Of a stretch of 58,920 nucleotides of DNA, positions 13,184 through 18,657 are shown piece after piece. Below the pieces are notes generated by a model. The model saw only the letters and a list, made by a program, of their open reading frames with translations. It ran no database searches and was not told the origin of the DNA. Source of the DNA: a virus. Made by a program: the position numbers and the translations under genes. The stretch lies in IMG/VR virus record IMGVR_UViG_3300027782_000095, positions 1 through 58,920 of that record; one strand, 5' to 3'. Each line of letters begins with the position of its first letter. Within the stretch, counting starts at the first letter, position 1.

Positions 13184-13501
13184 ATGGAACAGTCAACAAA
13201 CAAACCAACAGTTCAATCTTTTGACGCTATCATCTTGACTATCGATGACGAAGCTCGTCCAAAGTCAAATGGCAAGCACTTCCTTCTTTGCGAAGTGGAG
13301 TTCAAAAGTGGTGCTTTATTAGGGAAGAAGTTCTTCGCTAATCGTACATTAGGCCCAAACAAAACAGAGATTTCTGTGGGACAAGATGTACAAGTGTTAT
13401 TGTCTTTTGCTGAAAGAGATGGCGTGAAGCGTCCTTTCTTTGAGATCAGTACCAGTCGTGTGGCAAGTGCAGAAGAGATTATGGATTTATTGGGTGCGTA
13501 A
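13184..13501 (+). CDS. Small OB-fold-like protein, probably highly expressed
   Basis: A 105-residue protein starting MEQSTNKPTVQSFDAIILTI. The ATG at 13184 is preferred over one at 13139 because it follows the A-rich ACTCAAATATAAA leader and the upstream extension is Cys/Pro-rich and unlike the rest. The core alternates strands (HFLLCEVEFKSG, LLGKKFFANRTLG, ISVGQDVQVLLSFAE, KRPFFEISTSR) in an OB-like pattern with Lys/Arg-rich loops, so single-stranded nucleic acid binding is possible. Codon choice resembles the capsid gene. A strong terminator follows at once, so the gene forms its own unit. Confidence 0.72.
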   Translation: MEQSTNKPTVQSFDAIILTIDDEARPKSNGKHFLLCEVEFKSGALLGKKFFANRTLGPNKTEISVGQDVQVLLSFAERDGVKRPFFEISTSRVASAEEIMDLLGA

Positions 13502-13510
13502 TCCCATTGT

Positions 13511-13549
13511 AACAGTATGCATAGTAATATGTGCATACTGTTATTTTTT
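13511..13549 (+). terminator. Strong intrinsic terminator
   Basis: A perfect 11-bp inverted repeat (AACAGTATGCA at 13511-13521, TGCATACTGTT at 13532-13542) with a 10-nt loop is followed by an A and six T residues. It ends the unit holding the OB-fold-like gene. Confidence 0.88.
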
Positions 13550-13604
13550 AGTTTACACCATTGGCTCTGTCCAATGTTATTATATATTGTTTTTTAGTTT
13601 ACAC
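13544..13604 (+). repeat. Pair of 15-nt direct repeats before a mini-gene
   Basis: TTTTTTAGTTTACAC occurs at 13544-13558 and 13590-13604; the similarity continues as [C/T]ATT. A small hairpin (CATTGG/CCAATG, about 13558-13576) lies between them, and the second copy ends 27 nt before the ATG of a 30-codon frame. They may be phage promoter or operator elements. Confidence 0.5.
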
Positions 13605-13631
13605 TATTCACTCACAATCTAAAACTTATCT

Positions 13632-13724
13632 ATGTTAGCAACTATCTTAGCTAATGGAACTGTTGTAATCGTTAAGTCTCTTGTAGATGTAATGACTACA
13701 GCAGAAGATGTACGCAATGCGTAA
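13632..13724 (+). CDS. 30-residue mini-protein
   Basis: A frame of 30 codons encodes MLATILANGTVVIVKSLVDV followed by MTTAEDVRNA. Codon use resembles that of the highly expressed gene upstream, and an A-rich leader precedes the ATG. It could be a leader peptide for the structured RNA downstream or a tiny membrane-associated protein. Nothing is recognised. Confidence 0.45.
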   Translation: MLATILANGTVVIVKSLVDVMTTAEDVRNA

Positions 13725-13781
13725 TACATCTCATCCAGAGAGAGCTCATCTCTGTTAAACCACTGAGTATCAACTAATTGT

Positions 13782-13812
13782 GTGTGTGTTTATCTATGTG
13801 GTAGACACACAC
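13782..13812 (+). other. Long RNA hairpin after the mini-gene
   Basis: GTGTGTGTTTATC (13782-13794) pairs with GGTAGACACACAC (13800-13812) over 13 bp including two G-T pairs around a TATGT loop. The following TCTTTATTCTTTC is only weakly T-rich, so it may be an imperfect terminator or the first element of the structured RNA. Confidence 0.6.
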
Positions 13813-13844
13813 TCTTTATTCTTTCATCTAATTCAAATAGCACT

Positions 13845-14418
13845 AATATAGACCACTTTTGGTGGCATTAGATAGCTATAATATATGTTTAATGCATCAT
13901 CTCTACTTCACAAGGGTAGACAAATGTAATATATTGTAACCAGGTAAATAAGCATATTGCTAAATAACCTGAATAATTATGATAAGATAGAAATAGGTTA
14001 TAAGGTATGCTAGCAATACTGAATATAAAACATTATAGTTCCTATTATTACATTTGAATGCAGAGTGGACAATTCTATTCTAGGTTATTGGTAATCCTTA
14101 GAAATCATTCAGTTTAATCCAGTATGTCTGTTTAATGCAATCTGGTAATTATGACATACACACACTTAATTCCCTGGAAAGGGTTGTACAGCTTGTAGGC
14201 CATTGTACGTAATGTAAAACAACCTTCTGAATGATGCTAACAGCATTAGATCTAAGCACATCTATAAACTGCTCATTTTATTTAACCACACTATTAGTCG
14301 TATAAAGGACTGATATGCAACACAGATGTCTTCTGGAGTGGTGTTATTATATAGGATTTCTAGCAGTTAGACTTCATTTAACTGTGGCTTTAGTGGTGAT
14401 GCATTAACCACTGTTTTT
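13845..14418 (+). ncRNA. Candidate large structured RNA (~570 nt)
   Basis: This gene-free stretch holds many nested perfect helices. ATCTAAT and ATTAGAT flank a CCAC/GTGG hairpin at its 5' side. CAAATGTAATA (13921-13931) pairs with TATTACATTTG (14046-14056) and encloses CAGGT/ACCTG, AATAGG/CCTATT and GTAT/ATAC stems. ATCATTCAG (14104-14112) pairs with CTGAATGAT (14227-14235) and encloses GTATGTC/GACATAC (14122-14128 with 14153-14159) and a CCCT-GGAA-AGGG hairpin with a GNRA tetraloop (14172-14183). ATGCT/AGCAT follows. TTAATGCATCA near 13889 can also pair with the 3' end near 14398. An intrinsic terminator closes it. The size recalls the ROOL and GOLLD phage RNAs, but identity was not tested and the 5' end is a guess. 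Confidence 0.6.
14392..14418 (+). terminator. Terminator of the large structured RNA
   Basis: AGTGGT (14392-14397) and ACCACT (14407-14412) form a 6-bp stem around GATGCATTA, followed by G and five T residues. The loop bases can also pair with 13889-13899, so the 3' hairpin may compete with a long-range closing helix. Confidence 0.65.
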
Positions 14419-14448
14419 ATTTCCCCAAACATTAAAAATTATTTACAA

Positions 14449-14694
14449 ATGAAAATGGAACTTACACGTAATGCTGACAACAAGGTTGTTGGCTACAAAC
14501 TAATTAAAGAAGAACATGACGATCTAGAAACCTTTGAAAGGGTGAGAGACATGTACTTTTGGGCTTTGGATCAAGAAGTATTGGTGTATGATGGTAGAAA
14601 GAGTGATGATGATGATAATACAACAGAACTCAACTTTGCTACTAAAGCACACCATAAAGAAAAAATGGACAAAATCAATTCTCCAATCATTTAA
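14449..14694 (+). CDS. Hypothetical acidic protein
   Basis: An 81-residue protein beginning MKMELTRNADNKVVGYKLIK, with a YDGRKSDDDDNT acidic loop. It starts after TTATTTACAA, an A/T-rich leader. No family is recognised. It is the first gene after the structured RNA and may share its promoter by read-through. Confidence 0.55.
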   Translation: MKMELTRNADNKVVGYKLIKEEHDDLETFERVRDMYFWALDQEVLVYDGRKSDDDDNTTELNFATKAHHKEKMDKINSPII

Positions 14695-18112: not shown

Positions 18113-18599
18113 GGGCCTGCCTGGTTTTGACAGCAACAAGCAGGTAGTATCACACGCAAGGCGTAGTCAGTAGCCAAACAAACTGATTAACACTTAAAGG
18201 ACAACACAACAGTTGAACTTTCTGATATGACCTTTGATAGCTTAATGGCTTTCATTGGTGCTGACGAAGCTATTGCAGCCTAGTCTCAGACGAGTAGTTA
18301 TACTTTGGAACAGAAAATAGCAAGCGTAAAGACATAGGGTCTTCCTGTGACACTGACCATCCAAGACTATATGATGTAAAAAGAAAGCACAGTCCCAAAT
18401 TTCCTGGATTATTAGGACGTTAAAAACATTAGAAGCCAGGTGGTGGAATCTAACCTATGAGTTAGCCCTATTAGGGTGCAAAAGTCAGCTTAAACACTGA
18501 CTTTAGTACATGAGTTGTCAGCTCATACCTTGACTAAGCGTGTAAAAATGGTATTATTGGCAAATTGTTTGGACAGGGGTTCGAATCCCCTCAGGTCCA
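18113..18599 (+). ncRNA. ssrA: Transfer-messenger RNA (tmRNA)
   Basis: The 5' end GGGCCTG (18113-18119) pairs with CAGGTCC (18592-18598) as a seven-pair acceptor stem with one G-T pair; A18599 is the discriminator and CCA is not encoded. The T-arm AGGGGTTCGAATCCCCT (18575-18591) is canonical and the 5' side CTGGTTTTGACAGC matches the tmRNA D-domain signature. The 470-nt interior encodes a tag frame ending TAG at 18281-18283 and holds several hairpins consistent with pseudoknots. tmRNA with SmpB frees stalled ribosomes and marks proteins for proteolysis. No phage smpB is seen, so host SmpB would be used. At about 487 nt it is long for the family. Confidence 0.9.
18200..18283 (+). other. tmRNA tag-peptide reading frame
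   Basis: In the only frame ending at a plausible tag stop, the codons from GAC at 18200 read DNTTVELSDMTFDSLMAFIG then ADEAIAA and TAG. An in-frame TAA at 18188 limits the start, so the tag has at most 30 codons; the usual added Ala comes first. The end IAA resembles the xAA that ClpXP recognises. The exact resume codon is inferred. Confidence 0.7.
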
Positions 18600-18657
18600 C
18601 TGATCGAAAGATTAAGGGAAAACTAAAGGGTTTTTCATAGGATTTGGATTGATAACG

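Follow-up and report, generated by a model that had tools for sequence, protein, structure and literature searches.

A shuffled string of covarying RNA units at the head of the rightward genes of a distant crAss-like phage

The region we analysed in this phage genome is, judging from comparison with related phages, almost certainly a real structured RNA, made up of autonomous units that stand in a row and are shuffled from phage to phage. In alignments of homologous loci at least four of the units present here (B, M, A2 and H) have covarying helices, and three of these have covarying pseudoknots. The region lies at 13845-14418 on the plus strand of an IMG/VR record of 58,920 bases, which as a whole is referred to here as the window; the structured stretch reaches upstream of 13845, to about 13775. 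Our preferred reading, held with somewhat less than even confidence, is that the region would be transcribed as a mosaic leader heading the rightward operon and would act in cis on the downstream message; we infer that it would do so through the stability, processing or translation of that message. We found no description of such shuffled strings in the open-paper literature, and no known family fits any of the units. At least 12 recurrent RNA units without an Rfam entry are thereby added, five of which (B, M, A2, H and A) were shown to covary, and the results show that large phage RNA regions can arise by the shuffling of independent domains rather than by the conservation of one fold.

Comparative evidence for the units in the window

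A preliminary description of the window had taken the region for structured RNA and its carrier for a crAss-like phage, and both points were borne out. By the sequence of its large terminase (TerL), the source phage is a distant crAss-like virus, because all named relatives of that protein, with identities of about 25%, belong to crAss-like and related phages whose hosts are Bacteroides, Flavobacterium and Cellulophaga. CrAss-like phages rank among the most abundant known phages. The test set beforehand, covariation in related phages, returned strong covariation and no conserved protein frame.

The helices seen in a single sequence prove nothing, because shuffled sequences fold almost as well; the structure is shown by comparison instead. 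When 13845-14418 is compared with 300 dinucleotide shuffles its fold energy gives z = -1.29, with 34 of the shuffles equally or more stable, and that of the 724-nt region gives z = -1.8. Perfect helices of at least 9 bp are as many in 55 of the 300 shuffles of 13845-14418, and those of at least 7 bp in 41 of the 300. The argument that chance seldom gives a spacer this many long pairs in nested order is therefore not upheld. The individual pairings singled out at the same time are present in the sequence. The 11-bp pair 13921-13931/14046-14056 turned out to be helix P3 of the recurrent unit B, and the CCCU-GGAA-AGGG hairpin at 14172-14183 has a loop that varies between GGAA, GCAA and GUAA among relatives. 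The 9-bp pair 14104-14112/14227-14235 (ATCATTCAG/CTGAATGAT) is there as well, but its comparative support is partial and RNAalifold favours other partners. The final hairpin at 14392-14412 is followed by a T run as described; the supposed terminator, however, is stem 2 of the recurrent unit H and not a proven terminator.

Unit B (Table 1) was sought with a 26-position pattern over viral contigs, followed by a profile search. The profile search found at least 149 distinct copies in viral contigs, and in at least 133 a script located the P3 partner strand, a few of these strands being visibly misplaced. An alignment of 46 copies has 98.1% of its cells paired and double changes in 19 of 24 pairs, with P3 pairing biased upward since copy selection demanded a paired P3; P1, P2 and the pseudoknot are free of this bias, apart from a loose tail filter. 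None of 500 shuffles was as good, and slid controls were 30-51% paired. P2, whose pairing was not a selection criterion, is 100% paired with compensatory changes at 5 of 5 positions, and the pseudoknot switches from C-G to A-U in 10 sequences.

Two further ideas about unit B were rejected. Its variable inserts are not strongly folded elements, a mean z of -0.93 marking a mild folding tendency, and an upstream hairpin abutting B is not a rule, the excess being mild (24 of 117 versus 10 of 116 for stems of at least 7 bp). A variant with extra helices in the P2 loop, retaining the core UCCCAAGG, was seen at L091:9971-10276 (minus strand) and in L118, L191 and L201. Among bacterial genomes the unit B pattern occurred on one short contig only, RFNS01000086.1, 4.6 kb of a lake MAG labelled Alphaproteobacteria, which is probably a misbinned phage contig.

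The remaining units of the window are resolved to differing degrees (Table 1). The segment 14069-14241, found by BLASTN and profile searches, is conserved in the spacer at the equivalent place in several relatives. The arrangement of unit D3 is repeated in relatives, at times directly before a gene (L030, L034, L023 and L040); the window copy has diverged, and was detected by pairwise alignment and missed by the D3 profile. A homologue search for segment X found none, and it was seen in this phage only.

Table 1. Features of the RNA string in the window, and ribozymes at unit-bearing loci of other phages (prefix L)
Feature	Position	Strand	Remarks
Unit D2	13777-13818	+	Hairpin with conserved GUGGUAG apex, then T-rich stretch; aligned in 10 related loci ahead of D3; pairing not formally counted
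D2, terminator-like hairpin	13782-13812		Within unit D2
Unit D3	13851-13883	+	Short variable hairpin 13853-13856/13862-13865, then conserved GAUAGCUAUAA
Unit B	13890-14069	+	Three-way junction with pseudoknot; covariation; window copy recovered by model R1, although the long insert required manual placement of its 3' half
B, P1	13893-13897/14058-14062	+	
B, P2 hairpin	13902-13906/13916-13920	+	
B, pseudoknot	13908-13911/14065-14068	+	P2 loop with 3' tail
B, P3	13921-13931/14046-14056	+	Holds the variable insert
B, variable insert	13932-14045	+	Length differs greatly among copies
Unit M, 5' part	14082-14113	+	GGUUAUUGG...CCUUAGAAAUCAUUCAG; 13 loci; pairing partly resolved
Unit M, 3' part	14170-14247	+	Covariation; model R3, window 87.5 bits
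M, GNRA hairpin	14172-14183	+	
M, covarying stem	14186-14190/14204-14208	+	5 of 5 pairs changed on both sides
M, loop-to-tail pseudoknot	14197-14199/14223-14225	+	AGG/CCU versus GAG/CUC switch
M, 3' hairpin	14234-14237/14243-14246	+	
Unit A2	14247-14274	+	H-type pseudoknot; 25 loci; pseudoknot pairs covary
A2, stem 1	14248-14251/14260-14263	+	
A2, stem 2	14255-14258/14270-14273	+	
Segment X	14283-14347	+	Lies between A2 and H; possible three-way junction, judged by eye and from the single-sequence fold
Unit H	14360-14412	+	14 loci
H, stem 1	14364-14368/14380-14384	+	Conserved GACUUCA loop, then GGCUU; counted as covarying
H, stem 2	14392-14397/14407-14412	+	Final hairpin of the preliminary description; by eye, its two sides change together
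First protein gene downstream of the string	14449-14694	+	81 aa; start 36 nt past unit H
Pistol ribozymes	L105:2996-3058; L216:59-120; L172:5714-5776	Strand of units	
Hatchet ribozymes	L198:968-1104; L202:8518-8654	Strand of units	

The stretch from 13725 to 14448 had been described as free of genes, and no frame longer than about 36 aa occurs there, nor is any open frame conserved across homologues. The length of the longest frame, the variable length of the unit B inserts and the shuffling of the units speak against a protein-coding region. A hidden gene in the RNA region was rejected, as no frame was found.

Shuffling, strand and copy number among related phages

The hunt for homologues yielded 80 loci by way of terminase relatives and 31 contigs by a scan for conserved 20-mers. 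In the 31 contigs the conserved pieces recur separately: the two-hairpin unit A, unit B and others. The window has no copy of unit A, in which 10 of 11 pairs covary; its loci were retrieved through an exact match to 20 nt of the loop, which makes the loop invariant by selection and leaves the stems unaffected. The loop sequence UAGAAGC of unit A is presumably like the GTPase-centre loop of 23S rRNA, and unit A2 we take to resemble tmRNA; both resemblances are very short and we give them no weight. Neighbouring these units in other phages are further recurrent ones, named F, G, I, J, K, E and N. Altogether there are at least 12 unit types, which stand singly or almost abutting (gaps are often 2-15 nt) and in variable order: B-M-A2-H in the window, with D2 and D3 before B, D3-M-A-B in L065, F-B-M-A-B in L089, A-B-B in L091 and B-M-B-A2-B-E in L148. 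At loci with two or more units, 323 of 323 units lie on one strand within their locus, in counts that are not all independent since some loci are duplicate contigs.

The mosaic composition invites two further explanations. The units might act as decoys for RNA-binding proteins of the host or against its defence, and come and go in the manner of anti-defence genes. The gain and loss of units, their position at the head of the rightward block and the conserved loops on variable stems would suit such a role; it is purely inferential, with no target, link to defence genes or similarity to known decoys found, and we consider it quite improbable. Alternatively, the strings might serve as recombination cassettes, shared intergenic sequences by which small genes are swapped, with RNA structure secondary. 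The shuffled order and the occurrence between small ORFan genes are in keeping with this, and T4-type phages reportedly offer a precedent (Arbiol et al. 2010, cited in PMC4177764). However, compensatory changes in helices and pseudoknots show selection on folding, which recombination does not need, and strand coherence is strict; this explanation strikes us as very improbable.

The units are confined to one locus in a genome. Unit B was found in 21 of 28 long records, in one place each with 1-3 clustered copies; record G022 has two copies, one at each record end. Unit A occurred exactly once in each of 7 long records and unit M once in each of 6. With one locus per genome, we rejected unit B as a signal standing before every gene.

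The region does not belong to a known giant class, as had been suggested. No match to GOLLD, ROOL, OLE or HEARO reached the gathering score in the window, and none was found up to E = 5 over 13500-14460. Rfam 15 had no match to units B, M, A, A2, H, K, F, G, I, E or N in the carrier loci (E up to 1 or 5); its only matches elsewhere in the unit loci were to tRNA, freshwater-1, tmRNA and known ribozymes. Named phage records had no DNA match to the region, nor to units B and M-A. A single conserved overall secondary structure, by which GOLLD, ROOL, OLE and HEARO are recognised, was not found, as unit order and content vary; in place of one giant architecture we see a string of autonomous units shuffled between phages.

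These observations bear on whether the string is a stand-alone large non-coding RNA, mosaic in build and with its own terminator, that acts in trans as a folded particle with a function like that of GOLLD or ROOL. The single locus per genome, the many pseudoknots, the length of 0.6 kb here and the last hairpin followed by GTTTTTATTT all speak for it. So do the tRNAs in many unit loci, given that tRNA islands are frequent neighbours of ROOL and GOLLD (PMC12286853). Against it, there is no giant-family match, and unit order and content differ between phages, unlike a single conserved particle. Moreover, the strings of L083 and L110 are interrupted by small genes, units often stand 20-60 nt before a gene, and the terminator-like hairpin belongs to a recurrent unit that elsewhere is directly followed by unit B (L100 and L185). 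The 3' end of the string is thus a recurrent unit 36 nt from a start codon, and other strings end similarly, which makes the earlier label of a stand-alone RNA doubtful; we regard this account as a serious, if somewhat unlikely, candidate.

A tRNA array was rejected as well, since unit B adjoins a tRNA in only 2 of 84 cases. Freshwater-1 RNA (RF02979) lies near a tRNA gene in the unit-bearing phages L086, L088, L200 and L201.

Gene setting and a possible role in cis

In the window the RNA region has leftward genes on its left side, terminase and portal among them, and rightward genes on its right side, and the region is placed just inside the rightward block, upstream of the 81-codon gene at 14449. 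These gene calls are simple ORF calls; the 81-aa gene has an orthologue at the equivalent place in L005. The window shares with L065, L099, L129 and L148 that the RNA string stands where leftward and rightward genes diverge. The feature that follows a unit is a same-strand gene in 160 instances, another unit in 141 and an opposite-strand ORF in 7. The distance from unit to start codon is 20-60 nt in 51 of the 160, versus about 8 at 60-100 nt, and this sharp excess is seen for units A, A2, B, D3, E, H and I.

It is this placement of units before genes that leads us to favour a leader acting in cis. A separate promoter for the gene at 14449 would have little space, as only 36 nt separate its start codon from the end of unit H. 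The plus-strand string would be transcribed as one, ending those 36 nt short of the gene, and its units may adopt compact pseudoknotted folds during transcription, by which nucleases would be withstood or guided. The folded units could then fix the ends of the downstream message, and the 20-60 nt left open would offer an A/T-rich landing strip for the ribosome in a host group that is presumed to be low in Shine-Dalgarno pairing. Exchange of units between phages would be possible because each unit would work alone.

Several observations argue against the leader. A general stabiliser or translation signal would be expected at many operons, whereas we observe one locus per genome. Units F, G, K, N and J show none of the 20-60 nt excess and were never seen near a start codon, and many unit-to-gene distances are long (100-500 nt). 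The conserved unpaired nucleotides, furthermore, have the look of a specific binding or active site and not of a generic roadblock.

Other elements of the window deserve mention. A direct repeat, TTTTTTAGTTTACACYATT, occurs at 13541-13613 as two copies 46 nt apart with a hairpin before each, and is a possible candidate for a phage promoter. Sigma-70-like sites are no more frequent than in shuffles, and the sigma-70 type may not be the phage's own. A small frame at 13632-13727 has an end (LRSA or VRNA, then stop) that is kept in relatives and coincides with a hairpin, TACGC-loop-GCGTA; this hairpin, at 13700-13727, is mostly invariant among relatives, and its pairing counts are confounded with the possible peptide end. 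A tmRNA-like gene at 18113-18602 (plus strand) is a full-length match to Rfam RF00023 (61 bits) with a G-U third pair in its acceptor stem; ARAGORN missed it.

Ribozyme company and comparison with known systems

Pistol and hatchet ribozymes share the strand of the units at their loci (Table 1), and a twister match below threshold was found in L170. All five above-threshold ribozymes lie within 900 nt of a unit, as against 30% of the scanned bases. It is possible that some units are themselves new small self-cleaving ribozymes, which would cut the transcript of the string into segments; ribozymes of this kind typically have compact pseudoknots in which unpaired nucleotides are invariant, as the units do. 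However, neither a catalytic core nor a site of cleavage is recognisable in the units, and none matches any Rfam ribozyme model. The three pistol loci may come from related phages, and the units are nearly adjacent. On balance we judge this processing role to be distinctly unlikely. A match to the group I intron (RF00028, 53.6 bits) was seen in another unit-bearing phage, at L212:9067-9294 on the plus strand.

It is tempting to speculate more broadly that the units make up a library of autonomous RNAs, catalytic or ligand-binding and new classes of self-cleaving ribozyme included, which is kept at one locus, exchanged between phages and reassorted like protein domains. We think this unlikely. 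Nevertheless, new catalytic RNAs are a testable prospect because the known ribozymes share strand and loci with the units, and since the units are found singly and in twos as well as in long strings, the function of each can be dissected separately.

Several known systems resemble the strings in part. Like GOLLD and ROOL, they form a large, pseudoknot-rich phage RNA region that is often near tRNAs, and the 5' half of GOLLD is itself variable (PMC12286853). They differ in giving no covariance match, in being composed of independent units that are shuffled, and in their frequent closeness to a start codon. The promoter-stem-loop cassettes of T4-type phages are reportedly mobile and consist of a promoter and a simple stem-loop. 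With these the strings have in common that intergenic regulatory elements are shuffled among small phage genes, whereas here the phages are crAss-like and the chained elements are RNA units of at least 12 kinds, several of which have pseudoknots that covary. Phage tRNA arrays are likewise one-strand strings of structured RNA units with variable content; the units described here, however, are not tRNAs and end near start codons, and the local tRNAs are mostly not beside unit B. Finally, pistol, hatchet and twister ribozymes have similarly compact pseudoknotted folds and share strand and loci with the units, whereas the units match none of these families.
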